A stretch of DNA of 64,000 bases, taken from NCBI RefSeq assembly GCF_030209445.1, contig NZ_JARVSD010000011.1:124001-188000 (forward strand), given 5' to 3'. Below, in pieces: positions 25,273 through 64,000 of this stretch. Both the position numbers and the translations under genes were made by a program. The notes beneath the pieces were generated by a model. That model saw only the letters and a list, made by a program, of their open reading frames with translations, searched no databases and was not told where the DNA came from. The stretch is from Promicromonospora sp. MEB111. Its GTDB lineage: Bacteria; Actinomycetota; Actinomycetes; Actinomycetales; Cellulomonadaceae. The stretch's first letter is position 1, and each line of letters begins with the position of its first letter.

Positions 25273-25320
25273 TCAACTTCTGAGACCGGTCTCCCGGTTT
25301 CTCGGGAGTCGAACCTGGTC

Positions 25321-25360
25321 AGAGGCCCGGATCCGCGGAATTCCGCGGATCCGGGCCTCT
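25321..25360. repeat. Perfect 40-bp palindrome
   Basis: The two 20-base halves (AGAGGCCCGGATCCGCGGAA and its exact reverse complement) meet with no loop. It lies 48 bases after the DUF2075 stop and 105 bases before the integrase start. It could act as a strong rho-independent terminator in both directions, or mark an integration boundary. A smaller hairpin (CTCCCG...CGGGAG) lies just upstream at 25291-25308. Confidence 0.85.
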
Positions 25361-25465
25361 TCGCGTCCTGGGGTGTCGTGGACACCTATGGACGTGAGGA
25401 GCCCCGAATTGCCTCCCCGAGAGGCACGCAGGAGGCACGCCGATACGACCAGGAGGGAACCGACG

Positions 25466-30600: not shown

Positions 30601-30669
30601 GGGATGGGCAGCGATGCGGCGGCCGTCGCCGAGATCGCACGGCTCTGCTCGGTGCAGGTGGAGTCATGA
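27610..30669 (+). CDS. Secreted LamG-like/DNRLRE-type protein preceding Rhs
   Basis: A 1019-residue exported protein. It has a signal peptide (GGAAVALCLALSSGVMVGL with a following AAA cleavage area), then a beta-rich region (about 50-290). A DNRLRE-like segment follows (TERLLFEFFSLDNNGTYLAN, VSAEFGVDGTTSWDCTSRQV, TTWSNQPDWGPVQDTWSG), then a fibronectin-like region (PVYLQFRVVALTGEQVWQSS), and a C-terminal LamG fold (SVSAFLHPSEVTGSAAAVTQ, DEWTFVVGVHDATADKIH, FKGAIDEVRVYED). Such proteins commonly sit directly before giant Rhs proteins in actinobacteria and may help display or deliver them. The GTG at 27610 follows GGGGAG; an ATG at 27616 is also possible. The stop overlaps the Rhs start (ATGA). 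Confidence 0.82.
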   Translation: MAMVVTSGRADGRLRGGAAVALCLALSSGVMVGLPAAAWESAEAVPVSVEADCAVTEAGTVLEAEAIAAECDIDVTVTDSLTPWQTAVVEAETGHVAVDTAVSAVRQDSDDDGAWAPVDVQIAATPDAATGMLAVTGGVEPIWLNPGGAAGADLPLAVIGPDGDQVRMFSGSLPITGAVSVEDDRVTYDLGEGISLVASLNGQGTSVTPVVRLEDTAALDALVDRTGDPVGELGLDFPLETSAGLTLQESEGGFEIVKSDGTPRFTSGPALMWDSAGGDQAESSPSARALVEQDAPDRVEQPVLGDNVAAMEVQLSENAFTVVADGAALTAPGSVAPFYLDPEMGAHTPARYAMVQSHWPTTATFNYEGSEGLGFCNPSWDARCAGVENTERLLFEFFSLDNNGTYLANLDGADIVSAEFGVDGTTSWDCTSRQVNAYATGRISSATTWSNQPDWGPVQDTWSGTHRAGCSTGRAEFDFTTRAKVQANADESWIAIGLQAANETSMTWWKQYRGDSGALRITYDRPPLAPSEASMDIKNDESAAAPDYDCYQDENRPVLRSDNPTLEARTNDPDGTPVYLQFRVVALTGEQVWQSSWRGPVGPGIDATATVTSGVVKDKEYRWQARAKSTDSIVETTRTLSWDDVPSCRFRVDGEDPNDPKITSSNYPPGIVSGGIGTPIKFTLSPNGSNDVEGFYYGINTTEPSEWADIDPGQSTTGTLEADVTRAGRNFLAAYAYDVSGRTSGIPVQYEFYVGFPHATGIWRFNDAGWQTTPPLVAANSLAGSGTGGLTRTSTVGWGWGYDGVNGTFPPGSTAETGVPDGALVFDAPGDVAKSSKAVVGVDKSFSVSAFLHPSEVTGSAAAVTQEGEHVGSFHLGLSTSADCPTEGEPCWAFWMRNTDDPNSDNTIALVDLPVVVDEWTFVVGVHDATADKIHAYACSAGPNSHHEVEQSDLEDFQPAWNATGPLRLGSGVSDGSPMWQFKGAIDEVRVYEDQVLGMGSDAAAVAEIARLCSVQVES

Positions 30670-33600: not shown

Positions 33601-36600
33601 TGGTCACGCAGGTCGACACCGTGCACGACGGTTTCGGTCGGCCGCACACGGTGTCCGACCGGGGCGACACCAGTACCACCGGAGACGAGACCTGCACGAC
33701 CACCGCCTACATGGTGAACCCGGGCGCGAGCGCGGCGGTGCTGGCCCGTAATCAGCTGACGCCGGTGCAGCAGCAGGACGTTGTCAGCGTGCGCTGCGAC
33801 CAGACGCCTACACTGCCGGATCAGGCGATCTCCGAGACGAAGTACACGTACGACGGCGGCACGCTGTCGCGCGGCCTGGTGACAAAGACTGAGGAGCTGG
33901 ATCGGTACGAGGGGACCACCCCGAAGTACGTCTCCACGACAACGGACTACGAGCTCGTCGGAACCGGTTACGCACGGCCGACCAAGGTCACCGACCCCAA
34001 GCTCCGGGTCACGGAGACCAGCTACGTGGATACCGCCGCGGGTTTGAATTCGCAGACCAAGGTGACAAGCCCGGACCCTGACGGGACCGGCGCGCTCACG
34101 GTGCATGAGACGACCACCGAGGTCGATCCCGCCTGGGGTTCCCCGATCAAGATCACCGACCCCAACGGCAAGGTCACGTCCGGCAGCTATGACGCGCTGG
34201 GCCGGCTCAAGCAAGTTTGGGAGCCTGGCCGTCCCCAGGCCACCGCGACCCCGAACACCAAGTACGCGTACTGGGTGCGGACCACGGGCCTGAACGCCGT
34301 GATCACCGAGACCTTGAACCATGACGCGTCGGCGTACGTGAAGTCGACCCAGATCTTCGACGGTCTGCTGCGTTCGATTCAGACACAGGCACCGTCGGCG
34401 TCGGATACCCAGCCTGGACGTGTGGTGACCGACACGATCTACGACTCGCGCAACCTGCCGATCAAGACGAACGACGGCTGGTACAACACCAGCGCCCCGG
34501 TCACGACGCTCGCCAAACCGACCATCGCCGTACCATCTCGCACCGTCACCCAGTTCGACGGCGCCGGCCGCGCGGTGAACGAGACGTTCTATGTCGGCGA
34601 GGACAACATGCCCGACACGGACGGCAACTACGACCCATCGTGGACGACACTCACCACCTACGCCGGTGACCGCGTGCACGTCAACCCGCCTGCCGGTGGC
34701 ACCCCGACCACGACGATCAATGACGCACGAGGCAACACGATCGAGCTGCGTCAGTACGAAGGCGCGACCCACTCGGGTACGCACCACGACACGACGTACA
34801 AGTACGACCACGCCAACCGCCTGGAGTCCGTGACCGACGACGCGGGCAACCAGTGGGGCTACGAGTACGACCTGCGGGGTCGGCAGACCCTCACGACCGA
34901 CCCGGACAAGGGCACCACTGAGACCACCTATGACGAGGTCGGCAACGTCCTGACCACGAAGGACGCTCGCAACCAGATCCTCGGCTATACCTACGACGCG
35001 CTGGACCGGAAGACCACGCAGCGGTCGGGCGGGGTCAGCGGCACGGTGCGCGCCAAGTGGGCCTACGACACCGTCCAGAAGGGACAGCTCACTTCCAGCA
35101 GCCGTGTGGAGGGCACCGCGGAGTACATCACCGCGGTGACGGGGTACTCCAACGACTACCAGCCGACCGGTCAGAAGGTGACACTTCCGACGAACGTGAC
35201 GGCGCTGGGCAGCCTGGCGGGCACCTCGTACACGACCGGGTACACCTACACGCAGGACGGTCGCCTGTACGAGACCGACTACCCGGCCGCTGGACAGCTG
35301 AGCGCAGAGAACGTCCGGATCCACTACGGGGCCGCGAACCTGCCCGACGCCCTGTCGGGTGCGGGGAACTACGGGTACTACGTGGTCGCGGCGACCCACT
35401 CGCCGTTCGGCGAACTGGACTACCTCGACCTTGGTTCCGAGTACAGCTACCAGCACTACCTCAACATCGAGCGTGGCACGCGCCGCCTGGTCGGCGTGAC
35501 CCAGAACGCTCACCGCGCGGACGGCAGTATCGACTCCTTGGTCAACGCTGCGTATGCGTGGGACGACGCCGGGAACCTGACCTCGGTCAAGGACACCCCG
35601 GTGACAGCGGATGGCGGCCAGCCGGCCGATCAGCAGTGCTACCGGTATGACTGGGCGCGCCGGCTGACTCAGGCGTGGACGCCGTCCAATGGCGACTGCG
35701 CCACGTCGCCCACGACTTCGACCGTGCTCGGCGGGGGCGCGCCGTACTGGAACACCTACTCGTATAACGCGATCGGCAATCGGACCGGGGTCACGACCCG
35801 CACTCCGGCGGTCGGCGGTACTGCCGCGACGTCGACGACCTCGACCTACGCCTACCCGACCTCCGGGCCGGGTGTGGCGCGGCCACATGCGGTCACCGGG
35901 GTGACTGCTACCGGGACTGACGCCGGGACCTCGTCGTTCATCTACGACGCTTCCGGGAACATGCTCCAGCGAGCCGTGGCGGGCCAGGCCGCACAGGCCC
36001 TGACCTGGGACGCCGAAGGCGAGCTGGCCAGTGTCGGGAGTGACCAGAACGGCGACGGAACCGTCTCCGACACCGAAAAGGCCGCCGGGGACAAGTACGT
36101 CTACACCGCCGACGGCGACCGATTGGTCCGACACCAGTCCGGTGAGCAGGGCTCCACGACCACGGTCTACCTGCCCGGCGGGCAAGAACTCGTGCTCGAC
36201 AAGACCACGAGTCAGCTGACGGCATCGCGGTACTACGCCCTCGAGGGCAAGACAGTGGCAGTGCGCACGGGGATGGCCCGGGACGACGTCGCAACGATCG
36301 TTCCCGACCACCACAACACTGCTCAGATCCAGATCACCAACGTCTCCGGTGTGGTCACCCGCAAGTACACCGACCCGTTCGGTGTCGAACGTGGGACAAC
36401 CGGTGCAGCAGCCGGATGGGCTGGCGACCACGCATTCCTGGACAAGCCGCTGGACGCGACCGGGCTGACCGCGGTCGGGGCACGGATGTATGACACGGCT
36501 CTCGGCCGGTTCATCACAATCGACCCGGTCATGGACCTGACCGACCCCCAGCAGTGGAACGCGTACTCCTACTCCAACAACAACCCCACCACCTTGAGCG

Positions 36601-37394
36601 ATCCCACCGGCCAATACGTCGGCTACACACTTGACCCCGGTAGTGGCGGTGGTTGTGGTTGCGACAACGGGTACGACGGTGGTGGATCTAGCGGGCCAAG
36701 TGACCCGGGTGACGAAGCTCCGGTGGCAGATCCCTCCGACCTGTCTCTTTACGATGAAGGTGTTGCCAACGGCACCATCCCGCCAGCACTGCCCCCTTAT
36801 CTGACGCAAGAGGGGTGGGGCGACTTCTTCATCACCAATTCGGTGAATTTCGGAATCGACACATACCACGCATGGAACGACCCTGCCCTCTTCTGGGAGT
36901 TTTGGGGCGAACGCGGACCACTGGCATGGCAGGATCAACTTGAGCTTGAGTTGGTCGGTTGGGCTGGCAGTTTTGGCGCAACCAGGGTTGCGACCGCGGG
37001 GGCCAGCGGAGCAGCTCGGGCAGCAGGTGGCGCGGCGAGCGCGGAGAGTGCACTTCTACGGGCGGGTGGGAAGTCCCCGAGCGCCCGCCTCCCTATGAAT
37101 ATGGATAGTGTCTGTGACGTGGCGTGCAAGTATGACGTCGATCTGACGGGCGTTCGAGTGAGGATTGACAAATCTCGAGCAGGGGCCTATGGAAGTACGG
37201 CTCCTGACAAGACAATCACACTCTTTCGAAATGCCTTTGAGAACGAGGAGCAACTGGCGCGCACGCTCGCGCACGAGAGATTTCATGTGCACCAGATCGA
37301 CTCCGGGATGGGGTACCCGACGGTATATGATGCAGCAAACAAGTGGGAGCAGGCGGCAATCGCCTTCGAGGATGCCTGGTGGTCAAGTCGATGA
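30666..37394 (+). CDS. Rhs repeat protein, polymorphic toxin with C-terminal HExxH tip
   Basis: A 2242-residue secreted Rhs/YD-repeat toxin. The N-terminus has a membrane/signal helix (AGMSVVAAAVVITLMGTGVV). Many YD-type repeats follow (YDALGRLKQVWEPG, YDHANRLESVTDDAGNQWGY, YDLRGRQTLTTDPDKGTTET). The Rhs core is YDTALGRFITIDPVMDL, then NAYSYSNNNPTTLSDPTG near residue 1978. The last 260 residues are a separate tip: a Gly-rich linker, a membrane-active-looking Ala/Gly segment, then LARTLAHERFHVHQID, with HERFH at 2203-2207 matching the zinc-protease HExxH motif. The tip DNA (from about 37050) is AT-richer than the repeats, as expected for swapped toxin cassettes. It is coupled to a candidate immunity gene by a four-base overlap. 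Confidence 0.92.
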   Translation: MSGASARAVRTSGASGYERETFVSGYGAARWTGKAGMSVVAAAVVITLMGTGVVPATAAADDDRANWTLEERREYGEELKDTSLSSEETPVPAVDVDPDSPAPDLTGYEDTPEARVEADPVTWPAAGDVTLPLPAPAAGVAEGRAGGLPVQIEQAAAEQTAGKEAGAARSAVAAAGDVRVEHEPRSIAAQVGAIGGVITLDQSGSAAVTTSRTTASADETTRVRVGVDVGFLAGAGADLASRLTLVQLPQCALSTPELEECRTRVPLDHVTLDDQRGESATSGAMILSGEVDLLAEGTANTAARSASSTTAQSQTVVALMAEDEGPNGDWAATSLSASASWDVSEQTGSFNWSYPMRTPPVPGGLSPQLSLAYSSASLDGKVASSNTQSSQVGDGWEANVSGYVERKYVPCVEDQQDKNNVAPNNATRDTGDLCWKTNNATLVFNGSATELVRDGESDTWRPVNDDNTMVTRATGGWGEGEDGTDAGEYWIVTTDDGTKYYFGRNKTSATGAALGSVYFARVYSNHAGEPCNVTTYSGSACTMGWRWMLDYVEDVRGNTMTYTYNREVNRYGHNNNGGVTQYVTGGRLASIEYGTKTGSTAEAPARVAFSYGERCIPTSTFTCAAEDRTVEHGSHWPDLPLDLVCTSSTTCPDVQSQVFFDRFRMTGITTQIRSNGTLVGVDNWGLVQTLPTVGDSMPTLWLDTITHKGLGGNNDDTDDLALPVVDFTSEQLANRVNGIGDDGAKAMTRLRVNEILSESGGVTAIDYSGTECSSNVLPANPWSNDKRCMPVFFTPPGVEEATEHYFHHYRVERMTESAGSAIGGTLVTTDFVYTGGPAWHYDDNELVKAKERTWGELRGYSRVDVYTGDSGDANAPRLRTAYRYFQGMDGDRNDRDGNTVKSEDVDGITDLDQYAGMVREEITYQDAAGDTQVSSTVSTPWRSSSTATNPDDTSKEAFHTGVSSVVTTARAPERASGQMVTQVDTVHDGFGRPHTVSDRGDTSTTGDETCTTTAYMVNPGASAAVLARNQLTPVQQQDVVSVRCDQTPTLPDQAISETKYTYDGGTLSRGLVTKTEELDRYEGTTPKYVSTTTDYELVGTGYARPTKVTDPKLRVTETSYVDTAAGLNSQTKVTSPDPDGTGALTVHETTTEVDPAWGSPIKITDPNGKVTSGSYDALGRLKQVWEPGRPQATATPNTKYAYWVRTTGLNAVITETLNHDASAYVKSTQIFDGLLRSIQTQAPSASDTQPGRVVTDTIYDSRNLPIKTNDGWYNTSAPVTTLAKPTIAVPSRTVTQFDGAGRAVNETFYVGEDNMPDTDGNYDPSWTTLTTYAGDRVHVNPPAGGTPTTTINDARGNTIELRQYEGATHSGTHHDTTYKYDHANRLESVTDDAGNQWGYEYDLRGRQTLTTDPDKGTTETTYDEVGNVLTTKDARNQILGYTYDALDRKTTQRSGGVSGTVRAKWAYDTVQKGQLTSSSRVEGTAEYITAVTGYSNDYQPTGQKVTLPTNVTALGSLAGTSYTTGYTYTQDGRLYETDYPAAGQLSAENVRIHYGAANLPDALSGAGNYGYYVVAATHSPFGELDYLDLGSEYSYQHYLNIERGTRRLVGVTQNAHRADGSIDSLVNAAYAWDDAGNLTSVKDTPVTADGGQPADQQCYRYDWARRLTQAWTPSNGDCATSPTTSTVLGGGAPYWNTYSYNAIGNRTGVTTRTPAVGGTAATSTTSTYAYPTSGPGVARPHAVTGVTATGTDAGTSSFIYDASGNMLQRAVAGQAAQALTWDAEGELASVGSDQNGDGTVSDTEKAAGDKYVYTADGDRLVRHQSGEQGSTTTVYLPGGQELVLDKTTSQLTASRYYALEGKTVAVRTGMARDDVATIVPDHHNTAQIQITNVSGVVTRKYTDPFGVERGTTGAAAGWAGDHAFLDKPLDATGLTAVGARMYDTALGRFITIDPVMDLTDPQQWNAYSYSNNNPTTLSDPTGQYVGYTLDPGSGGGCGCDNGYDGGGSSGPSDPGDEAPVADPSDLSLYDEGVANGTIPPALPPYLTQEGWGDFFITNSVNFGIDTYHAWNDPALFWEFWGERGPLAWQDQLELELVGWAGSFGATRVATAGASGAARAAGGAASAESALLRAGGKSPSARLPMNMDSVCDVACKYDVDLTGVRVRIDKSRAGAYGSTAPDKTITLFRNAFENEEQLARTLAHERFHVHQIDSGMGYPTVYDAANKWEQAAIAFEDAWWSSR

Positions 37395-53314: not shown

Positions 53315-54130
53315 GTGCACGGGCCAGGAAAAGCTCGGGTCCCGATCAACGGTGACGAGGAACGTCTACGAGACCTCGCCCTCTCGGTCGCGCGCTGTCC
53401 CGAGGTCGATCGGGCGCGGAGCGACCTCGCGCACCCGTGCCGCACGATCGTGAACGTCCAGGAAGGGCCGCCTGAGAGGTTCCAAGTTCCCGAAGGGTGG
53501 GCCGGCAACCTGGCCCAGGCGCGGATCGTGTTCCTGAGCTCGAACCCGTCGATCAGCGAGCCCAAGGAGGGCAAGCCACCCGAGTCCGCCGAGGCATATC
53601 CCGCGGCAGCGGACGACAATGACCTCATCGCGGACTTCGTCGTCCACCGCTTCGACGGGTGCTGGGCGCGACCCGAAGGAAAGCATCGGCGCATCGATGG
53701 TGGCTACACCTACGTCGCGTTTTGGGGGGCGATCCGCAAGGTTGCCACCGACCTTCTCGGGTATCAAGCGAGTCCGGCGGCCGACTACGTCATGACGGAG
53801 GTCGTCCACTGCAAGAGCAAGGGCGAGACTGGAGTCAATAAGGCCCTGGACCGATGCAGCGGATTGCACATGGACCGCATACTCGCCGATTGTCCCGCCG
53901 CTGTGATGGTTGTCGTTGGCGGCAAGGCTCGTGACCGCGTCGCGCGCATCTGGGACCTAGGGTGGGACAAGAAGCACACGCCGGCCGTCGTGCGTGAGAT
54001 CGCAGGTCGACGGCGCACGATCGTGCAGCTCGCCCATCCCGCCGCGTTCGGCGCCAATGAGTACGTGTCCACCAAGTATCCCGAGCACCTTGCCGTGCTG
54101 CGAGCGGCCGCGCTGGGTGCGCCCGCCTAA
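53315..54130 (+). CDS. Uracil-DNA-glycosylase-like protein of unknown activity
   Basis: A 271-residue soluble protein with a UDG-superfamily pattern: ARIVFLSSNPSISEPKEG early (like the GxNPS motif I strand), VMTEVVHCKSKGETG in the middle, AAVMVVVGGKARDRV, and a late RTIVQLAHPAAFG resembling the H-P-S/A motif II. The expected catalytic Asp/Asn of motif I is not obvious, so glycosylase activity is uncertain. Start GTG at 53315 with a weak ribosome site. It converges on the GTPase/helicase operon, separated from it by a hairpin. It may be a DNA-repair or defence accessory. Confidence 0.65.
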   Translation: MHGPGKARVPINGDEERLRDLALSVARCPEVDRARSDLAHPCRTIVNVQEGPPERFQVPEGWAGNLAQARIVFLSSNPSISEPKEGKPPESAEAYPAAADDNDLIADFVVHRFDGCWARPEGKHRRIDGGYTYVAFWGAIRKVATDLLGYQASPAADYVMTEVVHCKSKGETGVNKALDRCSGLHMDRILADCPAAVMVVVGGKARDRVARIWDLGWDKKHTPAVVREIAGRRRTIVQLAHPAAFGANEYVSTKYPEHLAVLRAAALGAPA

Positions 54131-54263: not shown

Positions 54264-55556
54264 CTACTTCTTGGTTCGCTGCTTCACAAGGGCATTGACG
54301 ACCTGCATGACGGTCGGTGCGTAGTCCTTCCAGGCCGTCTCGACCATTTCGATCGGGAGCTTGCCGTTGTAGACCCGCTCGCACAGTCGCATCCAAGCTT
54401 CGCCGGTAGCGGTGGTCAAGGCGCCTGCGACGGCGGCGTTGATCACGTTCCCGAGGCCAGGGATCAACTTGAGGAAGCTCCTTGCAAGGGCCTTGCCTGC
54501 GAACTGAACGGCGAGCTGTGCCAGAGCCTGAGCGCTGAGCACTACTTTGATGTCAAGCCCGTAGACAGACGCGATCTTGCCCATCATCGTCAGCTGGATC
54601 GGCGCGATGATCGCGGCGTCGGCCAACGGAATCGGCGTTGCTGCCGCTGCCGCGGCAGCGCCCGATGCTGCGGCTATGTACCGACGACACAGTGCCCGCT
54701 TGAGCGGCAGCGAGAGGCGCTGCGCGACGCGAAGCGCATCCTTCGTGTCGCCAGGAGACAATTCGAGGGTCGTCTCAACCAACTCGTGCAGTCCATGGGC
54801 AGGCCCACCAAACCTGCCCTGATCCTTGGCGGCGGTCAGGACGACTGCATCGACCGGCAGATCAAATGACTCACCCTCTCGATCGAGGGGGCCCTCAAGC
54901 CAGTCGCGCAGGCTCTGCGAGTCGTCCGAAGCAGTCCACGTTCCTGTGAGGTTCATCCTCCGTGCGACCTTGGTGAGGACGATGACCACGGGCACACCCT
55001 GCCTCCGGAACTCGCGGAGGACGGCGATCTCTGCAGGCTGAATTTTGCCGAGCGTCGACAGGACGCAGTACCAAACCGCGGAGATCCGCTGGTGCGCCGG
55101 CCCTGCGGCGATGGTTTTCAGGTCGGCACGCACCGATTCGGCAGGATCCGTGCGAGAGCCGATCTCAAAACCCTCGAAGTCCCAGATCCCCAGAGATTTG
55201 TCGGCGTTGGTGTAGTAGTTGATGCCCTTTGTGACGGGCAATCCGATGCCCGTCTCTGCGAGGTCTTCTCCGAAGACGGCGTTTACGAGCGTGGATTTTC
55301 CTACTCCTGTTCCGCCGACCACCACGAGATTGAACCGGCCGATCCGGTCCCGTTCGGACTTCGCCGCATCGATGAGCGGCGCGGGGTCGAGGAACGGTTC
55401 GTCGTCGAGGGCTTGGGCACCGGTCACGGCGTAACCCTGACAGATTTGGACAACGGGCGCTGGGCCTTTGGCGGGTGATCTTCCGTCGAAACCACCGGCG
55501 TCGCTGAAATCACGCTTACCCGGAGCGGCACCGGCCAAGTGCTCACTGCGGCTCAC
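54264..55556 (-). CDS. P-loop GTPase with DUF697-type membrane region
   Basis: A 430-residue protein. Walker A/G1 GGTGVGKST is at 81-89 in NLVVVGGTGVGKSTLVNAVF; a G3-like stretch is GIWDFEGFEI; the G4 position reads VVIVLTKVA, lacking the canonical Asp of TKxD. After about residue 290 a DUF697/YcjF-like region follows (AAASGAAAAAAATPIPLADA, IAPIQLTMMGKIASVYGL, FLKLIPGLGNVINAAVAGAL), which probably inserts into or presses on the membrane. Start is a GTG overlapping the end of the SNF2 gene by 14 bases, so it is the third gene of the helicase operon. Such GTPases may sense or act at membranes. The missing G4 Asp suggests altered nucleotide specificity. Confidence 0.82.
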   Translation of the reverse strand: MSRSEHLAGAAPGKRDFSDAGGFDGRSPAKGPAPVVQICQGYAVTGAQALDDEPFLDPAPLIDAAKSERDRIGRFNLVVVGGTGVGKSTLVNAVFGEDLAETGIGLPVTKGINYYTNADKSLGIWDFEGFEIGSRTDPAESVRADLKTIAAGPAHQRISAVWYCVLSTLGKIQPAEIAVLREFRRQGVPVVIVLTKVARRMNLTGTWTASDDSQSLRDWLEGPLDREGESFDLPVDAVVLTAAKDQGRFGGPAHGLHELVETTLELSPGDTKDALRVAQRLSLPLKRALCRRYIAAASGAAAAAAATPIPLADAAIIAPIQLTMMGKIASVYGLDIKVVLSAQALAQLAVQFAGKALARSFLKLIPGLGNVINAAVAGALTTATGEAWMRLCERVYNGKLPIEMVETAWKDYAPTVMQVVNALVKQRTKK

Positions 55557-58500
55557 CTCCGAGATTCCAGAGCTTCACCCAATCTTTGACGTACTTCGTC
55601 GTCGTGAAGTCATCAGTGTCGGTGTCGTCGAAGGCGCGCAGGACGTATCGCAGGCGGTCCTCGCTTGCGGGACCGAACGAGACCTCCACCAGGGCCAGAC
55701 GGTGACCGTCACCGAGGTTCTTGGCGTAGATGACCTCGTTCTTCGTGACGGTGAAGTCGACCGCGCCGAGGATCCGCCCCTTGACCTCGATCTGCACCAC
55801 GGACCCGTCCGCTCTGACCGACCTGACGTCGAAGCCAGGGTTGTTGTGCGGCATCTCGACGGGCTCGGCACCGAGCACCCTCTCGGCCGCCAGCACGGCT
55901 TCCACGGCTCTGCGGTCCACACGGGCGGTGTCGCGCGCATGCAGCGGAACGTCGACTTCCATGTCGACCGGCGCACCCGGCCGGAGCATGCCGGCCGGGA
56001 CCACGATCGCCGCCCCACGCACCAGCGGAGGCTGCACTGTTAGCTGCTCCTCCAGATCGAGCGAGGCCATTCGTCGAAGAAGGCGGACCTCCAGCTCGCG
56101 GGCTCGCAGGAAGGCCGTCTCCGGCCTCGTCCGCACCTTCTTCCCGGCTGCGACCTGATCCGTCAGCCTGGCGTGCTCGGCGTCCCAGTGGTTGACCTCC
56201 GCGATCAGACGTGTCCGGACCGCTGCTCGGGTTCTACCGACCGTCGCGCCGACCGCGCGTCCGACGTCATCGGAATGTGCTGGCAGCGTGTGCTCGGTCG
56301 CCCAGGCGAGAGCCAGAGCTTCGGCGCCGTCCGCGAGCCAGCCCTGACCCGAGACCTGATCGGCGGCGTCGGACAGATCGACTGGTACCGGCCCGTAGTC
56401 GAGGTACGGTGCAGGGCCGCCTGCCCGTGCCTCACCTGACGGATCCAGCTCGGTGTACGCGAACCGCCGGGAGACCACGCGTCCATGGCCGTCGTGGATC
56501 GCCTCGGTCGACGCGACGAGCAGCCATGGGTCGAGCTCCTCGGCCTCCGCGTCGTAGAGGATGGTGCCGCGCTCGAGAGCGGACCCGAGATCCTCGATCG
56601 TCAGGTCGACGACGGCGTCGAGCAGGGGATGCCCTGGCGCGAGAAGCTCTGCGACAGGAAGCCCAGGCTTCCGGATCTCGGCGCGTTCGAACACGACTCG
56701 CTCGTACCGTTCGAGCACAGAGGGAGCAGCACCGCGCCGACGGCGCTCGCGGAGCCGGAGCGGCACCCGGGTGATCTCGTACCTCCCCGTCTCTCGCGCC
56801 ACGATGCGCCCGCCGAGCCGGGAGAACGCCGCGTGGAAGAAGGCCCGCACGTAGTGGGGCTGCAGCCGTCGCGCCCGGGCGAGCTCCAGCCGGCGTGCGA
56901 TCTCCTCTGAGTCGGTGGCTGTGAGAGCGTCCGAGGTCAGAGCTCGTTCCGCGAGCAGCCGGTCCAGTCCTTCGCCGACGGTCGCGTCGATGACCTCCTC
57001 GAGCCGGGACCGGACGTTGGGTCGGTCGCCGTATCGGATCGCCTCGAGCAGGAGACCGCGTAACGGCTGGTTCTCGAAGGCCTCGCCGAGCACGTCGAAG
57101 ACCTGCCCGCCGTAGTCCCTCCGTTGCTGCTCCACCTTGGCCAGCAAGCTGGTGAAGACCTGGCCTTCTCGGGTGTCCTCGGCCACGAGGTTCCAGAGGT
57201 GACAGGTCTCGGTCTGCCCGATCCGGTGGATGCGTCCGAACCGCTGCTCGATCCGGTTCGGGTTCCAGGGCAGGTCGTAGTTGACCATCAGGTGGGCCCG
57301 CTGCAGGTTGAGCCCTTCGCCGGCAGCGTCGGTGGCAACTAGGACCCTGACCTCGCGGTCCTGCGTGAACCGCTCTGTCACTCCCCGGCGCGCCTCGCGG
57401 GCCAGTCCGCCGTGGATTGAGACGACGGCGCCGGAGTCGCCGAGCAGCGTCCCGATCTGGTCGACCAGGTACCTCAGCGTGTCCTTGTGCTCGGTAAAGA
57501 CGATCAGCTTGCGGGGCGCACCGTCGGCACCGGCCGCCACGCCCTGGTCGATGAGGATGGACCGCAGCTCCGTCCACTTCCGGTCGGCGCCCGCGAGTCT
57601 GACCCGCCGCGCCAGGACGACGAGGTCGTCGAGCGCCGCGATCTCGGCTCGGAGCTCAGCGACCGTCCGCGCGGCCGTAGCAGCATCAAGCACCTCATCC
57701 TCAACGCCTTCGACCTCGCCGGCGTCGAGGTCGTCGAGTCGCTCGTCGAGGTCGTCTCCTTCCCAGGCCTCCAGCCGCGTCTCGTGGTGCCCGACTGTGT
57801 CTGGGGTTCCGCCCGCCTCGATCTCGCGGACGCGCGAGCTGAGCCGATCGTGGCGACGTTCCAAGCTTCGGAGGATCGCCTCCGGGCTTGAGGCCAGACG
57901 GCGCTGCAGGACGGTGAGGGCGAAGCCGACGGTGTTGCGACGTCCTGCATCGGCTGCGAGCCGCTCGGCCCGGCCCATCTCGGTTCGCACGTACTCGGTG
58001 ACCCGCTCGTACAGCTCGGCCTCGCCGGGCGACAAGGCATAGGGCACCGTGTAGGCCCACCGCTCGGGGAACAGCGGCCTGCCATCCAGGGTGAGCAGCT
58101 GTTCCTTGACCCGGCGCAGCATGAGGTCGTTCGGCCTCGCCGAGGATCCGCCTCGGGGCCGGCCCTCGAACCTGTCGGCGTCGAGCAGGGCGAGGAAGAG
58201 CTGGAAGTCGTCGGCGTGCCCGGAGTGCGGTGTCGCGGTCATGAGCAGCAGATGCCTGGCGATCCGTCCCAGCAGCAACCCGAGCTGGTAACGCCTGGTC
58301 CGTTTGAGCTCCTGGCCTGCCCAGTGGGCCGACATGCGGTGGGCCTCGTCGACGACGACCAGGTCCCAGTCGGTTGCCTTCAGCGCTTCGAGCAGGCCCT
58401 CATGCCGGGAAAGCTGGTCCATCCGCGCGATGAGGAGCGGCGATCTGGCAAAGACCTCAGCCGGATCGCGGGCGGCGTCGATCGCACTCTTGGTGAGGAT

Positions 58501-59073
58501 GTCGAACGTCAGCCCGAACTTGTCCGCGAGCTCGTCCTGCCACTGCTCGACCAGTGACCCTGGAGCGACGACGAGACAGCGTTCCAGGTCACCGCGAAGG
58601 AGGAGCTCCTTGATGTACAGGCCGGCCATGATCGTCTTGCCGGCACCGGGATCGTCGGCCAGCAGGAATCGCAGGGGCGTGCGGGGCAGCAGGTCCTCGT
58701 ACACCGCGCGCAGCTGATGAGGCAGCGGGTCCAGGTCCGAGGTCGAGACAGCGAGCATCGGGTCGTAGAGCGCGGCATACCGGATCCGCAGCGCTTCTGC
58801 GGCGAGGCGCCACTCGGCGGGGTCGGCATCGAAGGCTCGGCGGGTCGAGCCCTCCACACGGAGCCGTGCCTCGTCGGACCGTCGCAGAAGGGCCTCGCCC
58901 AGACCGCCCGACACGTCGCGGTAGGTCAGCTCGACAGCGCTCGTGCCGATCCATCGTGCGGCGACAACAGTGACGACGTCTCCGGCAACGCCTCGCACGC
59001 GAAGCCCGGGAACGAGCTTCTCCAGCTTAGTCCCGAGCGCCGCTGTGACACGGGAGTCGTCGTCCGCGGTCAT
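55543..59073 (-). CDS. SNF2-type helicase with C-terminal DUF3883-like domain
   Basis: A 1176-residue SF2 ATPase. The N-terminal beta barrel is followed by motif I FLLADDPGAGKTIMAGLYI (141-147 core), DEAH at 242-245 in LVVVDEAHRM, motif III LLLMTATPHSG, and motifs V-VI VLVATDAAGEGLNLQRA and LPWNPNRIEQRFGRIHRIGQ. Between the two lobes lies a long coiled-coil insertion. The C-terminus (EMPHNNPGFDVRS, VVQIEVKGRILGAVDFTVT, NEVIYAKNLGDGHRLALVEV) matches the DUF3883 pattern, a restriction-nuclease-like fold often fused to defence helicases. The start ATG overlaps the upstream helicase stop (ATGA). It recalls DISARM DrmD and similar SNF2 defence proteins; no methylase is visible in the window. Confidence 0.88.
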   Translation of the reverse strand: MTADDDSRVTAALGTKLEKLVPGLRVRGVAGDVVTVVAARWIGTSAVELTYRDVSGGLGEALLRRSDEARLRVEGSTRRAFDADPAEWRLAAEALRIRYAALYDPMLAVSTSDLDPLPHQLRAVYEDLLPRTPLRFLLADDPGAGKTIMAGLYIKELLLRGDLERCLVVAPGSLVEQWQDELADKFGLTFDILTKSAIDAARDPAEVFARSPLLIARMDQLSRHEGLLEALKATDWDLVVVDEAHRMSAHWAGQELKRTRRYQLGLLLGRIARHLLLMTATPHSGHADDFQLFLALLDADRFEGRPRGGSSARPNDLMLRRVKEQLLTLDGRPLFPERWAYTVPYALSPGEAELYERVTEYVRTEMGRAERLAADAGRRNTVGFALTVLQRRLASSPEAILRSLERRHDRLSSRVREIEAGGTPDTVGHHETRLEAWEGDDLDERLDDLDAGEVEGVEDEVLDAATAARTVAELRAEIAALDDLVVLARRVRLAGADRKWTELRSILIDQGVAAGADGAPRKLIVFTEHKDTLRYLVDQIGTLLGDSGAVVSIHGGLAREARRGVTERFTQDREVRVLVATDAAGEGLNLQRAHLMVNYDLPWNPNRIEQRFGRIHRIGQTETCHLWNLVAEDTREGQVFTSLLAKVEQQRRDYGGQVFDVLGEAFENQPLRGLLLEAIRYGDRPNVRSRLEEVIDATVGEGLDRLLAERALTSDALTATDSEEIARRLELARARRLQPHYVRAFFHAAFSRLGGRIVARETGRYEITRVPLRLRERRRRGAAPSVLERYERVVFERAEIRKPGLPVAELLAPGHPLLDAVVDLTIEDLGSALERGTILYDAEAEELDPWLLVASTEAIHDGHGRVVSRRFAYTELDPSGEARAGGPAPYLDYGPVPVDLSDAADQVSGQGWLADGAEALALAWATEHTLPAHSDDVGRAVGATVGRTRAAVRTRLIAEVNHWDAEHARLTDQVAAGKKVRTRPETAFLRARELEVRLLRRMASLDLEEQLTVQPPLVRGAAIVVPAGMLRPGAPVDMEVDVPLHARDTARVDRRAVEAVLAAERVLGAEPVEMPHNNPGFDVRSVRADGSVVQIEVKGRILGAVDFTVTKNEVIYAKNLGDGHRLALVEVSFGPASEDRLRYVLRAFDDTDTDDFTTTKYVKDWVKLWNLGGEPQ

Positions 59074-62000
59074 CCTGCGAGCCGCTCCCAAAGCTCGGTG
59101 CCCACAGGCAGGACTACCCAGCCCTCGGCGGCGAGGTCGCGCCGATCCGCGTCGCTAAGATCCTCCACCTCCAAGGCGATCTGCCGGTCGGCCCAGGAGA
59201 TTCCGATCGGGACGCCACCTTCGGACTCGAATCCGAGGTCCGGCACAGGCGCGCCGTGGTCGGCGAGGATCTGGAGGACGGCGCGCTCCGCACCGGTCGA
59301 GAGGGAGAAGGCCTGCTCCCAGCCAGACGGGACAGCCGAGCCTTCGGCGCCCAGGAGGCTGCGCAGGATGTCGGCCGCGTCGCCGCGAGAGAGCTCGTCG
59401 TGATCGCGCTGGTTGCTGAACGACCTGAGGCAGCCGTAGCAGGACGTCTCGGCTCCGCACTCGCACGAGCTGACCCGTCGCAGGGCGGCGTCGAGCACGC
59501 GTTCCAGGTTCGCCTCGACGTTCAGCACGTGCCCGGCGCCGCCGGGGACCCGGTCGAACAGGGAGATGGACCAGTCCTCGAGTCCCTCCGGGACGAGGGA
59601 ACCACCGAGGTCGTCACGGGCGATTTCCAGCGTGTCGCTGGCGGCCTCGACGATCGCGTACAGGACCGACTTCCAGGCGCCCTGCGTCCTCCGGCCGCCG
59701 CCGACAGAGAACCGGAGGGAGACGAGATCCGTCTCGTAGTGATGGGCAAGGTCGAGCAGTCGCATCGGCCCCGTGCAGTCGACGTTGCGCAAGGTGTGCT
59801 TGTGCTTGGCTGGCGGAACCTTCGGATGCTTGGCCCGTGACGTCCCGAACCCGCACCACTCGCAGATCCAGAATCCCATCCCCGCGGGACCGTCCGCGAC
59901 GGAGACGAGTCGTCCTCGTGGGCCGGCCTCGGCCTCGATCCCGCCGCCGGCCAGCCGCAGCTCCCGGGTGTGAGCCTCGGGGGACTTCGCCAGGACGTGC
60001 ACCGCACCACTCCATGAGCGCTGCGGAGGGCGAGCCCCGGGGCGCTTCGGCTCAGAGCCGGCGATGAAGCCGAACTCGGGGATCGTCAGGGTCCGCGGGC
60101 TCGCCTGGTTCACGTGCTTGCAGACGGAGCACGTGCTGTCGAGCGCCTCCAGGCCCTGCCAGAACGCGCCGCAATGTCCGCAGACCTGGTACTTGAACTC
60201 CTGGAGTTCGCGCCCAGGCAGCCTGTAGATGCCACGCGACACCCACAGCCGGCCTCCGGCCACGAGCTCGGCGTCGGGGGCGTATTCGTGAATGGCCGAG
60301 GAGAGGTCCCGCGTGAGGTCGAGGTCTGCGCCGCCGTCCTTGCCATATCCGAAGTCGGTCCGGAGTTCGACGGAGTCCACGGGGAAGCCGTACTTCGGGA
60401 GGACGTTGCGGTTTGCGAGGTAGCCGAGCAGGTCGCGGCTGCGCAGGGTGTTGCTGACCTTCTGGTATCGCTCGGCCAGACCGTACTTCTTTTGCTCGGA
60501 GGCTTCGGTGCTGAGCTGCTCAAGCACGTCGATCTCGCCAGTCAGCTCCAGGCGAACCTTCTCCAGAAGGTCGACGAGACGCCCCGCCCAGCTTTGGTCG
60601 TCAAGGCCCACCTCGGCGGCAATCTCCGCCGGGATCACGCGGGCGAGCGACTCCGCTACGCCGGGCGGCACCGGACTGAGGAAGCCCTTGATCAAGGTAA
60701 CAGGAGGATCGTTCCCCTCGTCGTCCGGCAGGAAGAACTCGCCGGCCTTCCGGTAGATCCGCCCCGTGCTCTCGAAGACCCATCGGAAGAAGGCAGCCAT
60801 CGCGATGGACTGGGCATGACGTCGATCGATGCGCTCGTTGACGAGCGGGATGTACGGCGCGCGGACGTGCCCGCTGATCATCACCTCGGGATCGGCAAAC
60901 CTCGTTAGGTCGTGGGACCGGCGCTGTGCGAAGGTCACGACGAGCGCGGCCGCACCGGACCGCCGCCCGGCCCGCCCAGCCCGCTGCAGATAGTTCGCGG
61001 TCATCGGAGGCATGTTCCGCATCATCACAGCCTGCAGCTCACCGACGTCGACGCCGAGCTCGAACGTCGTCGAGCAGGACAGAGCGTTGACCTCGCCTTT
61101 TACGAACTGGTGCTGGATCTCGGCCGCCCGGGTGTTGGCCCACTGAGCGGTGTGCTCGATCGCCGTCAGCGAGACGGCGTTGAGGGTGCGGTACACGGTG
61201 CGGTAGTGGTCTCGGTCCTCGTCGACGGGTGGAGGCGAGAAGGGCTCGAGGGTTCCTTCGCACCGCAGCGCCGGACAGACGTCACGGACCGACACGGGGG
61301 AGGTCCGGCGGCACACCGAGCAGCGGTACACGGGGGCCTTCTCCGTAATCAGGGAGAACCGCAGCAGCTCGTGGTCGATCTGGTGGACGACGCCCAGGGA
61401 CTTCTCGGTACTTGCGCGGAGCCACTTGACCGGTGGGGTCGGTGCGGTCAGCATCCGCCAGATATTTGCGAGGAACTCGTGCGGGTCGGCGTCCGAGCCG
61501 AGCTCCGCGAGGACCTTGGTTACGTAGTCGACGCGCCGGTTGGTGCCCTTGGTCGGCAGCCAGGAGAGCACCTTGCGCATCGGCTCCGAGCCCTTCCCGC
61601 GGACTCGGATCGGGCCCAGACGCGGAGCGAAGATCTCGTCGTTCGACGGGACGGACCCCGGCATCTCCACCGCGCCCTGCTGGCGCAGGGTGCGGACGAG
61701 CTCCTGGAGGAGGTCCCAGGCTTCGTCGTCGGACAGCCCCAGGGCGGTCAGCGGACGCGGTGCCGGACCCGAAGGCCGCTCCAAAACGATCCCGACCAGT
61801 CCCAGGCCTTCGAGAGACTGACGGTCGTCCGTGGCCACGGCCTCCGCCATGACCCACGGCGCGACGATCCGCGACTCGCCCTGCGCCGTCAGCCCGCCCT
61901 TGAAGAACTGCACCTTCTTCGCAGCGGCGCGCGTGCTGAACACGAGATCCTCCACCGAGACGGCCTCGTCGTCGGCGTGGGCCTTGGCCAGGCCCTGGGT

Positions 62001-64000
62001 GATCAGGCGGCGGCGCTGGACCTTTCCATAGGAGTCCTGCAGGTACGGCGCGAAGTACGCGGCGGCCTGCCGCGAGTCGCTGAAAGCCAGGAGCTTGCGG
62101 CCCTCGCCCGGCAGAAAGCCGCCCGCGGCCTGGTCCGTCGCCGGCGGAAGGTTCTGGTAGAGCGAGGTCGCGATGACCGCGCCGCTCGCGTCGGAGCCCG
62201 TCTCGAACACCCGGACCGTCCCGGGGCCGCGGGCACCACACACGAGGCACCCCGAGATCTCGTCCCCGCGCTGCTTGAGCTTGCGGATCGTCCGCAGCGA
62301 ACCCGACCCGCACCCGGCACAAGTCCGCGCTGCACCCGCGTTGATCGCGCCACAAGTCGTGCAGAGCCTCTCGTCCTCGCCGACTGCGGTTACGGGCGCG
62401 TCTGAGCCCTGAGCCGGGGCGTCCGTCTCGTTCCCGTCGGTGGGGACGAGGTCAACAGTCGCGTCCTCGTCCTCGTCGTCGACCGACTCCTGATCCCCGA
62501 GGACATACCAGGTGCCGCGCGTCATCGCCTTCCGCGGCCGGAGGTGGAACAGGCCCTCGTGGACCTCGGGGCTGCCCAGAACGTGCACGGAACCGCAACG
62601 GCGGCAGGACCCGATCTCGAATACCGGCGCGTCGCAGTCCGCGCACTCCGTGTGCCGGGCGAGCTGGACGTGCGGGCCCGACGGCGAGAGACACGTGAAC
62701 GCCCCCTCGGTCGCGCGCAGGAACAGGTGGTACCTCGCCGAGAGCGCCGTCGTCCCGTCTGGGCGGTGCAGGGCGCTCGCGAGCTCGACGAGCGAGGCGA
62801 GCCCGCGCTCGCCGTCGGGGTCGTTGCCGAAGAGCGCCCGCTGGACGCGTCCGAAGGTCTCCGGGCCGTCGGCTAGGCGGGTGCGGAGGGTCGCGAGCGT
62901 CTTTTCGTGCAGGATCGCGTCGACAGCCGAACCCGTGCCCTGCCAGCCGGCGGACCGGGCCGCGTCGAGCACAGCTTGCTCACGGTCCCAGTCCTCGGCC
63001 AGCCTGACGTAGTCCTTCGCGTCCAGGGGGCCCCAGAACGGGCCTGGGGGCATCGCAACGCGCTGCGCGCCGATCAGGTCCTGCCGGGCGGGGTCGCTCA
63101 CCTGCCATTCGAAGGGTTCCCCGAACAGGTTGGTCGCGAACTTGGTCACCGCCGACGGGTTGGTGTCGGCGCCGACGGTGGCCGACGTCGCAAGACACTG
63201 GATCGGCCGGTCCGGGGCCACCCGGTCCCGCACCCGGCGCAGCAGCATGGCCACCTCAGCGCCCTGGCTGCCGTCGTAGACGTGGGCCTCGTCCACGACG
63301 ATGAAGCGCCACGGGCTGTCCTTGCCGCTGCCGAACAGCTCCAGGTCGAGCGGCCGCAGGAGCAGATATTCCAGCATCGCGTAGTTGGTCAGGAGCAGGT
63401 TCGGTGGCGTCGCCCGCATCTCGGTCCGGCTGAGCAGCTCGTTGTCCAGGATCGGCTCGCCGATGTTGAGGTTTCCGAAGGCCTCGCGAGCACGGGCGGG
63501 ATCAGTCTCCGTGTCGCCGGTGTACCGGCCGAACGTGATATCCGGGTAGCCGGCGAGCAACTGGCGCAGGCGTTTCATCTGGTCGTTGGCCAGCGCGTTC
63601 ATCGGGTAGAGCAGGAGAGCCCGAACGCCGGGCCCCAGCGTGCCGGCCTCCCGCTCACGGACCAGACTGTCCAGGATCGGCAGGAGGAAGGACTCCGTCT
63701 TGCCCGAACCTGTGCCGGTCGCGACGACCACGTTGCGTCCCTCGGCGGCCTTCCGGATCGACCGCTCCTGGTGGACATAGAGCGGACGGTCCAGGGGCAG
63801 GGCAGTGCTGCCCAGCTCGGCGAACCCGCGCGACAAGACGCCGTCGTCAATGAGGGACTGCAGCGTGGCGCCCGGCGCGTATGGCGGCGTGGCCTCCAGG
63901 TACGGCCCCTTGTCCAGCATCGGGGTTCGGTCGATCGTCTCGGCGAGCGCATCGCTGATCTCGGAGTCCCGGACTGCCAGAAGCGTCTGGAGGTAGCGGC
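59070..64000 (-). CDS. Giant DEAD/DEAH helicase with DUF1998/MZB-type C-terminus (5' partial)
   Basis: More than 1640 residues; the frame is open to the window edge (RYLQTLLAVRDSEISDALAE precedes the internal Met at 63920), so the start is outside. Motifs: VVVATGTGSGKTESFLLPIL, LLLYPMNALANDQMKRL, FIVVDEAHVYDGSQGAEV, CLATSATVG, then LSCSTTFELGVDVGELQAVM and YLQRAGRAGRR. Several CxxC pairs form zinc sites (CTTCGAINAG, CAGCGSG, CLVCGARG, CGHCGAFW, CSVCKHV). The end, ISLFDRVPGGAGHVLNVEAN and SCECGAETSCYGCLRSFSNQ, is the MZB/DUF1998 signature of MrfA/YprA-, DrmAB- and DruE-type helicases. It is probably a 3'-5' translocase in a DNA-defence complex with the SNF2 and GTPase products. Confidence 0.9.
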   Translation of the reverse strand, partial: RYLQTLLAVRDSEISDALAETIDRTPMLDKGPYLEATPPYAPGATLQSLIDDGVLSRGFAELGSTALPLDRPLYVHQERSIRKAAEGRNVVVATGTGSGKTESFLLPILDSLVREREAGTLGPGVRALLLYPMNALANDQMKRLRQLLAGYPDITFGRYTGDTETDPARAREAFGNLNIGEPILDNELLSRTEMRATPPNLLLTNYAMLEYLLLRPLDLELFGSGKDSPWRFIVVDEAHVYDGSQGAEVAMLLRRVRDRVAPDRPIQCLATSATVGADTNPSAVTKFATNLFGEPFEWQVSDPARQDLIGAQRVAMPPGPFWGPLDAKDYVRLAEDWDREQAVLDAARSAGWQGTGSAVDAILHEKTLATLRTRLADGPETFGRVQRALFGNDPDGERGLASLVELASALHRPDGTTALSARYHLFLRATEGAFTCLSPSGPHVQLARHTECADCDAPVFEIGSCRRCGSVHVLGSPEVHEGLFHLRPRKAMTRGTWYVLGDQESVDDEDEDATVDLVPTDGNETDAPAQGSDAPVTAVGEDERLCTTCGAINAGAARTCAGCGSGSLRTIRKLKQRGDEISGCLVCGARGPGTVRVFETGSDASGAVIATSLYQNLPPATDQAAGGFLPGEGRKLLAFSDSRQAAAYFAPYLQDSYGKVQRRRLITQGLAKAHADDEAVSVEDLVFSTRAAAKKVQFFKGGLTAQGESRIVAPWVMAEAVATDDRQSLEGLGLVGIVLERPSGPAPRPLTALGLSDDEAWDLLQELVRTLRQQGAVEMPGSVPSNDEIFAPRLGPIRVRGKGSEPMRKVLSWLPTKGTNRRVDYVTKVLAELGSDADPHEFLANIWRMLTAPTPPVKWLRASTEKSLGVVHQIDHELLRFSLITEKAPVYRCSVCRRTSPVSVRDVCPALRCEGTLEPFSPPPVDEDRDHYRTVYRTLNAVSLTAIEHTAQWANTRAAEIQHQFVKGEVNALSCSTTFELGVDVGELQAVMMRNMPPMTANYLQRAGRAGRRSGAAALVVTFAQRRSHDLTRFADPEVMISGHVRAPYIPLVNERIDRRHAQSIAMAAFFRWVFESTGRIYRKAGEFFLPDDEGNDPPVTLIKGFLSPVPPGVAESLARVIPAEIAAEVGLDDQSWAGRLVDLLEKVRLELTGEIDVLEQLSTEASEQKKYGLAERYQKVSNTLRSRDLLGYLANRNVLPKYGFPVDSVELRTDFGYGKDGGADLDLTRDLSSAIHEYAPDAELVAGGRLWVSRGIYRLPGRELQEFKYQVCGHCGAFWQGLEALDSTCSVCKHVNQASPRTLTIPEFGFIAGSEPKRPGARPPQRSWSGAVHVLAKSPEAHTRELRLAGGGIEAEAGPRGRLVSVADGPAGMGFWICEWCGFGTSRAKHPKVPPAKHKHTLRNVDCTGPMRLLDLAHHYETDLVSLRFSVGGGRRTQGAWKSVLYAIVEAASDTLEIARDDLGGSLVPEGLEDWSISLFDRVPGGAGHVLNVEANLERVLDAALRRVSSCECGAETSCYGCLRSFSNQRDHDELSRGDAADILRSLLGAEGSAVPSGWEQAFSLSTGAERAVLQILADHGAPVPDLGFESEGGVPIGISWADRQIALEVEDLSDADRRDLAAEGWVVLPVGTELWERLAG

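Follow-up and report, generated by a model that had tools for sequence, protein, structure and literature searches.

The described systems that come closest to the locus analysed here are Hma (Type-1 BR), Druantia III and ARMADA. The core of Hma consists of a DUF499 ATPase with a HEPN domain, a DUF1156 methylase and an SNF2 helicase with a PD-(D/E)XK-like domain at its C-terminus; in Druantia III, the helicase DruE is preceded directly by DruH; and ARMADA (ArmA-D), as presented in PMC12458937, resembles our locus in its combination of a YprA helicase, a BrxHII/RapA-like helicase and an adenine methylase with a neighbouring UvrD helicase. The same source describes a Druantia III-like branch that often lacks a nuclease, and the functions of the Hma and Druantia III modules are taken here from PMC8565338, PMC12839542, PMC13192584 and PMC13316683. 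No description of a hybrid between Hma and Druantia was found in the main texts searched on Hma, DUF499/DUF1156, Druantia and ARMADA; the word "Druantia" is absent from the main text of PMC12839542 and "Hma" from that of PMC12458937. With slightly better than even confidence, we interpret the present locus as such a hybrid, an anti-phage operon in which a Druantia III-type DruH-DruE pair lies between HmaC and HmaA of an Hma system and which additionally carries an accessory membrane GTPase.

The initial annotation, made from the window (the whole 64,000-nucleotide stretch of DNA that was analysed), described three genes chained by start-stop overlaps, a possible anti-phage system in its own right. 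Three long minus-strand ORFs are indeed present (first called at 54264-55556, 55543-59091 and from 59070 to the window edge) and their domains are real, but the unit is not self-contained. It is cut by the window edge: the start of druE lies 55 bp beyond it (64055 in extended numbering; L006:3056), and three further genes on the same strand precede druE. Extending the contig past 64000, as proposed in that annotation, did bring up a methylase gene, hmaB, and DUF genes, with hmaC and the gene of a DruH-like protein, P0004, as the other two. The operon thus comprises six genes in the order HmaB–HmaC–DruH-like–DruE–HmaA–DUF697 GTPase (Table 1). The first five overlap or sit no more than 2 bp apart, with spacings of +1 bp at HmaB/HmaC and +2 bp at HmaC/DruH, TGATG at DruH/DruE and ATGA at DruE/HmaA; the last is a 4-bp overlap of the upstream stop with a possible hmaA ATG at 59073, so this one of the claimed overlaps stands. 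Because homology in hmaB begins only around residue 76-100, its true start may be later than the one given. The three Hma genes are not adjacent, hmaA being parted from hmaBC by the DruH-like and DruE genes. The surroundings are rich in defence genes; a pPIWI_RE set, for instance, is located some 4 kb upstream of the locus.

Table 1. Genes of the composite operon and its flank; positions refer to the window or, with the prefix L006, to the flanking contig stretch, in which position x equals window position x+60999
Feature	Position	Strand	Description
DUF697 GTPase gene	54264..55556	minus	430 aa from first GTG; Pfam PF01926 and PF05128
hmaA	55543..59073	minus	SNF2/SF2 helicase with C-terminal NOV_C; PADLOC HmaA, Pfam
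druE	59070..64000, runs past edge	minus	YprA-family DEAD helicase, MZB/DUF1998 Zn domain, 1661 aa
DruH-like gene (P0004)	L006:3056-6385, outside window	same strand, upstream of druE	1109 aa
hmaC	L006:6388-9789, outside window	same strand	HEPN and DUF499 ATPase
hmaB	L006:9791-12916, outside window	same strand	DUF1156 adenine methylase
Response regulator gene	L006:13672-14337	divergent, beyond hmaB	
UvrD/HisKA_3 protein gene	L006:14359-17265	divergent, beyond response regulator	

All three core proteins of Hma are encoded here. HmaA matches its PADLOC profile (PDLC00659) with 1334 bits over residues 22-1156, compared to 379 bits at best for DrmD, so the initial comparison of the SNF2 helicase with DrmD of DISARM does not hold; HmaB reaches 1063 bits (PDLC00660, with a PF06634 match) and HmaC 777 bits (PDLC00662, with a PF04465 match). 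The SNF2, Helicase_C and NOV_C domains of HmaA all exceed the Pfam cut-offs, and NOV_C (DUF3883-type, PD-(D/E)XK-like; PF13020, 50.7 bits), with its GFD...IEVK motif, is a candidate nuclease located C-terminally, as in Hma. In the HEPN domain of HmaC, the arginine of the R-x4-H motif is replaced by Ala, both here and in a related operon from another genus of the same family (G392), and by Gly in L104. What sets the locus apart from Hma is the insertion of two genes between hmaBC and hmaA. Among the fetched loci with all three Hma genes on one strand, the A-B-C order prevails (L106, L107, L117, L118, L120 and L121; also, for example, L263 and L266-L268), and C-B-A is found in weakly matching loci (L238, L241, L244, L279 and L282).

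The other helicase had been likened both to a DrmA-DrmB fusion and to a Druantia-type enzyme, and only the latter comparison survives: the PADLOC scores are 595 bits for DruE1 and 585 bits for DruE3, against 52 bits at best for DrmA among the 25 matches listed. Membership in Dpd was rejected by the defence-profile search. At E 0.001, the Pfam domains of DruE are DEAD, Helicase_C and MZB only, all above cut-offs, with no PLD domains of the III-A type among the matches. The gene for P0004 lies directly upstream, in the position of DruH in Druantia III, and its product has a similar three-part layout; the pair (1109/1661 aa) also falls in the size class of that of M. smegmatis (1132/1667 aa in PMC13316683), and the DruH-like ORFs of three mycobacterial relatives (G468, G429 and G415) are about as long, at 1134-1160 aa. 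None of the nine members examined gave a PADLOC hit. An hhalign comparison with four DruH sequences gave no match; with seven, the local alignment was colinear at E 0.0026, with a probability of only 12%, and the global one gave E 0.46. The profile used with the seven contained 32 rows drawn from P0004 and 37 loci, rows with short matches having been dropped and ORFs cut down to the C-terminal 1160 or 1200 residues (as also for the HmaA tree below). A fold search with the P0004 model returned weak matches only, with TM near 0.1 and many of them to Ig-array or beta-sandwich proteins, from a library that may lack a DruH structure, and neither the single-protein scan of genome contigs nor the plasmids yielded relatives. 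We call P0004 DruH-like; its putative identity as DruH is based on the position of its gene, on its layout and on a weak resemblance between profiles. Compared with Druantia III, and in particular with its III-B-like branch (a tentative label taken from PMC12458937), the differences are the embedding of the pair in an Hma operon, the lack of a Pfam PLD nuclease match in DruE and the lack of a DruH HMM match in P0004.

Could Hma and Druantia III simply be two systems, each complete and independent of the other, that have come to be co-transcribed in a defence island, with neutral interleaving and a stray GTPase? We regard this as possible but on the unlikely side. Each module usually occurs without the other, the region is rich in defence genes, the pPIWI_RE set included, and Druantia III is commonly found in RM-rich regions (PMC13192584). 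The joining is rare: a strong HmaA beside DruE was detected in one of the 18 genomes of the class with a P0004 match, and HmaC beside DruH/DruE at one of its 22 places in the order, the window's own in both cases; HmaA accompanies DruE in 1 of 25 named loci that have DruE, and none of 36 HmaC loci on viral contigs has DruH or DruE beside it. Across the order, query A1 matched in 1 of 396 genomes and HmaC in 21 of 396 with no further composite (a PDB sequence search with A1 gave no match). Given such low counts, most of the Hma and DruH-DruE loci examined lack each other. However, the internal junctions, at which the genes overlap or nearly abut, speak against independence, as does the interleaved order in the second genus, where G392 reads HmaB-[GmrSD]-HmaC-DruH-DruE-HmaA and so retains all five genes in this order, at 71-85% identity, with an extra GmrSD_N gene between HmaB and HmaC. 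Furthermore, the joining apparently took place separately with differing arrangements. In the Rhodobacter plasmid NZ_CP023549.1, the co-directional order is HmaA-x-HmaB-HmaC-DruH-DruE (gaps of 13, 9, 10, 26 and 1 bp), and in a Propionibacterium MAG (L166) it is DruH-DruE-HmaA, with a partial HmaA. The DruE tree (32 hand-picked rows, quick search, SH-aLRT only, several long branches including Rhodobacter) and the HmaA tree (20 hand-picked rows, including four of the 36 viral loci, several nodes weak) assign each of the three arrangements to a clade of its own, amid relatives that lack the joining, which suggests that Hma and Druantia were joined at least three times. The joining of the two defence systems, physically interleaved here, seems to recur in unrelated bacteria.

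ARMADA was rejected: in a quick tree with SH-aLRT support only, the DruE of the window falls in a 19-row clade (support 100) apart from five rows that we labelled ARMADA-like by gene order. It lies outside the ArmC-like clade, the methylase and the SNF2 helicase are HmaB and HmaA, and the DUF499 and DruH-like genes are additional. A rather unlikely explanation is that DruH-DruE forms a plug-in cassette able to team up with different adenine-methylase modules (ArmA/ArmB-like SNF2 and MTase, HsdR/N6-MTase, NERD-kinase or Hma), Hma being the partner here. Among 27 named loci, an SNF2 helicase lies downstream of DruE in six, five of these with an ArmB-like MTase (the sixth, L154, matched the ArmD query within the flank instead); a divergent N6-MTase lies upstream of the P0004-like gene in nine (L163, L164, L167-L170, L175, L178 and L179); and HmaA is present in one. 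This apparent recurrence beside several adenine-methylase modules suggests that a partner may often be involved in the action of Druantia III. Yet these matches were called by tblastn, some of the same loci having supplied the queries, with no random-locus control; a recognised partner is missing in L160, L172 and L177, and also in L158 and L174, both cut off by a contig edge; and the M. smegmatis pair protects when overexpressed in its own host (PMC13316683), which weakens an obligate form of the cassette reading.

Returning to the hybrid operon, the activities of the individual proteins would, by analogy with the work cited above, be as follows. HmaB would adenine-methylate self DNA and HmaC assemble a scanning complex; the DruH-like protein would sense infection and DruE load onto 3' single-stranded DNA of replication intermediates; and HmaA, a translocase with a NOV_C nuclease, would cut unmodified DNA. 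What the analysis itself establishes is the gene content, the spacing, the protein families and the recurrence of the joining. From the present analysis only, we infer that the modules work together: they would share one transcript and attack phage DNA in the successive forms that it takes. A bolder, quite tentative version, which we think improbable, makes Hma and Druantia III two halves of one machine, in which self/non-self scanning by HmaBC licenses, or is backed by, the DruH sensor and DruE unwinding, HmaA is the shared nuclease-translocase, mutual potentiation of the modules drives the repeated fusions and the GTPase provides a membrane-level response analogous to that of animal immunity-related GTPases (IRGs). 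The operon is a naturally occurring example in which coupling of a methylation-based system to Druantia III can be tested directly.

The GTPase, with DUF697 and MMR_HSR1 domains above the Pfam cut-offs, is an accessory, non-conserved component. That it is the integral effector or sensor of a new three-gene system, as first proposed, seems to us very improbable. Its ORF can overlap hmaA, by 14 bp, but for the first in-frame GTG only; among the first 75 codons, starts occur at 1, 7 and 44 (the last at about 55427), and since most of the homology to aligned proteins sets in around residue 43-50 and pLDDT stays under 50 for residues 1-51 of the AF2 model, the true start may lie downstream, separated from hmaA by about 115 bp. 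Upstream of the trio lie three further genes. The trio is no chance assembly, given its domain matches and the fact that another genus retains both helicases, but it is not conserved as such, an outcome that the initial annotation had named as refuting its proposal: no GTPase match was found in the stretches fetched around the G392 operon, nor in the fetched HmaA/HmaC neighbourhoods (0 of 12 in one set and 0 of 32 in another), and the 14 of 101 family genomes with a match do not include G392, taken as part of that sample. Core membership was therefore rejected. The initial impression that this looks like a defence locus was sound. We found no named system that contains the GTPase, its only match being a weak one to LeoBC (22.9 bits); in the literature, DUF697 GTPases in defence brought up one unrelated paper, and bacterial DUF697 in connection with immunity-related GTPases brought up animal-immunity papers among the ten listed. 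Some of its relatives adjoin restriction-modification or YprA-helicase genes, which places them near defence genes. The AF2 model combines an IRG-like G domain with a helical bundle, and in a fold search both predicted domains align with the IRGs Irga6 and Gm4951 (about 272-285 residues, Z about 16), at 12-16% identity, an rmsd of about 5-6 A, a Z tied with G-domain-only matches and a Foldseek TM of about 0.4, the protein itself belonging to the bacterial DUF697 family. With this predicted fold, the GTPase may add a membrane-level response to the operon, one dispensable in evolution.

The three ORFs and the domains assigned to them in the initial annotation are borne out by ORF reading and Pfam, and defence-system profiles, the check proposed there, now supply names for two of them. 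In PADLOC, the DEAD/DEAH helicase (P0003) is DruE (DruE1 595 bits, DruE3 585 bits), as the suggested Druantia III-type affiliation would have it, and the SNF2 helicase (P0002) is HmaA (1334 bits, residues 22-1156) as opposed to the DISARM-type DrmD previously envisaged, which is the runner-up at 379 bits; the GTPase (P0001) yields a weak LeoBC match alone. When the contig was read onward beyond the edge of the window (G000:C31:124001-188000), as had also been proposed, methylase and DUF genes were found upstream on the same strand. The junctions are tight (HmaB/HmaC, +1 bp; HmaC/P0004, +2 bp; P0004/DruE, TGATG; DruE/HmaA, ATGA), so that the start-stop chaining originally claimed holds for the two helicases. 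For the GTPase it depends on an uncertain start: a 14-bp overlap with hmaA exists only from the first GTG, in most homologues the alignment begins near residue 43-50, and a start at a further in-frame GTG, at codon 44, would leave a gap of about 115 bp.

Features of the window, of the contig past its edge (L006, L007) and of the G392 composite locus (L199)
Feature	Location	Strand	Remarks
HmaB	upstream of HmaC	same	DUF1156 methylase; 1063 bits
HmaC	upstream of P0004	same	Swt1-HEPN and DUF499 domains; 777 bits
P0004	upstream of DruE	same	1109 aa; no Pfam or PADLOC match
DUF697 GTPase	window 54264-55556	-	
Uracil-DNA-glycosylase match	window 53315-54130	+	convergent with the GTPase; marginal, 24.8 vs cut-off 24.3
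RHS-repeat protein	window 30366-37394		2342 aa; a laminin-G-like protein of 1044 aa comes before it
Schlafen group 3 helicase protein	window 23359-26773		PF09848, 287 bits; adjoins a phage-integrase-family protein
LuxR-type response regulator and UvrD helicase with HisKA_3 histidine-kinase domain	L006:13672-17265	+	adjoining genes
Same regulator and UvrD/HisKA_3 pair	L199:10932-14599	+	
pPIWI_RE-type defence set	L006:17325-19931 and L007:146-6378 (G000:C31)		upstream of hmaB by at least about 4 kb; PprPIWI 396 bits, PprDinG 777, PprPDDEXK 259
GmrSD_N gene	L199:4834-6771		inserted between hmaB and hmaC in G392; different accessory, same operon

What, then, is the protein encoded between HmaC and DruE? 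Matches to P0004 occur in 18 of the 296 class genomes, spanning nearly all of it in nine and part only in the other nine, and in all 18, the window's own locus counted, DruE lies downstream on the same strand (after about 4.7 kb in G016). Among the 27 named loci with this gene, DruE follows in 25, directly in 22 and after about 4.7 kb in three (L163, L164, L168); the remaining two stop at a contig edge. This is the order of Druantia III, DruH and then DruE, according to PMC13316683, where the Mycobacterium smegmatis proteins have 1132 and 1667 aa, compared with 1109 and 1661 aa here. Sequence tests are weak: PADLOC recognised none of nine P0004-type proteins, and hhalign of P0004 against four proteobacterial DruH proteins gave no match; deeper profiles (32 and 7 sequences) produced a colinear local match of residues 362-889 to 401-924 (E 0.0026, probability 12%; E 0.46 in global mode). 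The AF2 model (pLDDT 70, pTM 0.40) is helical towards both its N- and its C-terminus and beta-rich in between (~269-768), a layout resembling that described for DruH in PMC13192584. Given the position next to DruE, the sizes, the weak profile match and the model layout, we call P0004 DruH-like. In five family f24 genomes (L049-L053), a 626-663-aa open frame before DruE shares the middle of P0004 only (~residues 348-696) and may be a shortened DruH-like variant.

In a YprA tree of 32 chosen rows from a quick search, the window's DruE is sister to that of G392, a genome from another genus of the family (support 100), and both fall inside a 19-row clade of P0004-partnered helicases (support 100). 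Five ARMADA-like rows and the proteobacterial Druantia III rows stand outside this clade, and ARMADA membership was rejected. A Druantia III-like branch whose helicases mostly have no nuclease domain is described in PMC12458937. Partners of DruH-DruE were surveyed in the 27 named loci by tblastn with queries drawn from some of these same loci and no control loci. An SNF2 helicase lies downstream of DruE in six (the ArmB-like MTase query matched in five, the ArmD query in L154). In nine, an N6-MTase gene lies upstream of the P0004-like one in divergent orientation, and six have an HsdR match, including L171, which has no MTase match; L173 carries a divergent SNF2 and MTase. A NERD-kinase gene follows DruE in one locus, with a partial one in L163, HmaA is present in one, and L160, L172 and L177 showed no recognised partner gene in this survey.

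HmaA is present in 24 of the 296 class genomes. Twelve of the 23 besides the window's were sampled, with one HmaA neighbourhood each, and none of the 12 contained DruE above 200 bits or a GTPase match. Because most of these stretches ended inside or just after HmaC, the far side was fetched for the same 12 genomes; adding the neighbourhoods of the 20 other HmaC sites from the order search (22 minus the window's own and that of G094) gives 32 control stretches, in none of which DruH, DruE or the GTPase matched at 60 bits. Downstream of HmaC, coverage reached 5 kb or more at 15 of these 20 sites and in seven of the eight class genomes with HmaC seen. In a loose first look, P0004-type proteins turned up in one of 396 order genomes, and on viral contigs DruH or DruE stood beside HmaC in none of 36 loci (29 with at least 5 kb downstream). 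HmaC-like matches occur in 117 plasmid records and DruE-like ones in 184, of which the best 60 and best 40 rows, respectively, were examined; nine of the DruE rows were followed to their loci, and one is a hybrid of interleaved Hma and DruH-DruE genes. Given these low counts, the hybrid is uncommon, and the control stretches confirm its rarity.

The hybrid nevertheless recurs. The P0004-type query is positive in four of 101 family genomes, two of which have the hybrid, the window's own and G392. In the latter the order is HmaB, a GmrSD_N protein, HmaC, DruH-like, DruE and HmaA, the window's order being otherwise kept, with alignment identities of 85% (HmaC), 84% (DruE) and 79% (HmaA) and best tblastn segments of 76% (HmaB) and 71-75% (DruH-like). 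As in the window's genome, the response regulator and UvrD/HisKA_3 genes are divergent beside the composite; this helicase-kinase fusion with its own regulator, found beside both full composites, looks unusual. A Propionibacterium MAG contig (L166) carries DruH-like, DruE and HmaA, then ends; the 1.2 kb upstream of its DruH-like ORF hold another ORF and no HmaC match. On the Rhodobacter sp. CZR27 plasmid, the order is HmaA, a 210-aa protein, HmaB, HmaC, an STY4851/ECs_5259 protein (DruH) and DruE, separated by 13, 9, 10, 26 and 1 bp. In a 20-row HmaA tree, the window and G392, L166 and the Rhodobacter plasmid occupy three different parts. The nearest HmaA relatives of the Rhodobacter protein (L220, L224) show no DruH/DruE in their flanks, which extend 10 and 7 kb past HmaC on its downstream side. 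The HmaA closest to that of L166 (73%), from G233 (L116), belongs to a locus in which A, B and C follow one another and DruE is missing from the 13 kb upstream and the 7 kb downstream. The simplest reading of the separate tree positions and of these relatives without the joining is that Hma and Druantia genes were joined at least three times.

The claim that the GTPase is the third coupled gene of a conserved trio fails in G392, where the fetched stretches, composite included, have no GTPase match and which is absent from the 14 of 101 GTPase-positive family genomes (22 of 296 in the class; window's own included). In 13 fetched family neighbourhoods, some of them short, a YprA helicase above 200 bits lies near the GTPase in three (L141, L146, L148) and HmaA in none. 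PADLOC on nine hand-picked neighbour proteins from five of the loci identified type IIG RM (L140), type I RM (L143, L151), Dsr1-like (L143) and Mko-like (L141) proteins and a weak type II REase match (L150), one of the L151 proteins having no match. The GTPase model (pLDDT 79.5) finds immunity-related GTPases as the best Foldseek match (E 1.7e-8, TM ~0.4), and VIA-align superposes it on Irga6 and Gm4951 over ~272-285 residues (Z ~16, tied with shorter G-domain matches). We read it as a putative IRG-like membrane GTPase that may have been recruited to defence loci, and not as a core subunit.

In functional terms, HmaB, HmaC and HmaA have been proposed, on the model of BREX, to constitute an RM-like system (PMC12839542). 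DruE unwinds 3'-tailed DNA and DruH is a likely sensor according to PMC13192584, and in M. smegmatis the pair blocks phage DNA circularisation and replication (PMC13316683). By sequence, HmaB has DPPY and FAGGG motifs, HmaA and DruE have DEAH boxes, and a NOV_C motif is present. RNase activity of HmaC appears doubtful because the arginine of the HEPN R-x4-H motif is replaced, by Ala in the window and G392 and by Gly in L104. Any joint action of the Hma and DruH-DruE modules is inferred. The component parts are already known; no description of the interleaved operon was found in the literature searched. Elsewhere in the window, the Schlafen/phage-integrase pair at 23359-26773 is possibly the edge of a mobile element, and the RHS-repeat protein could be a polymorphic toxin or a surface protein.
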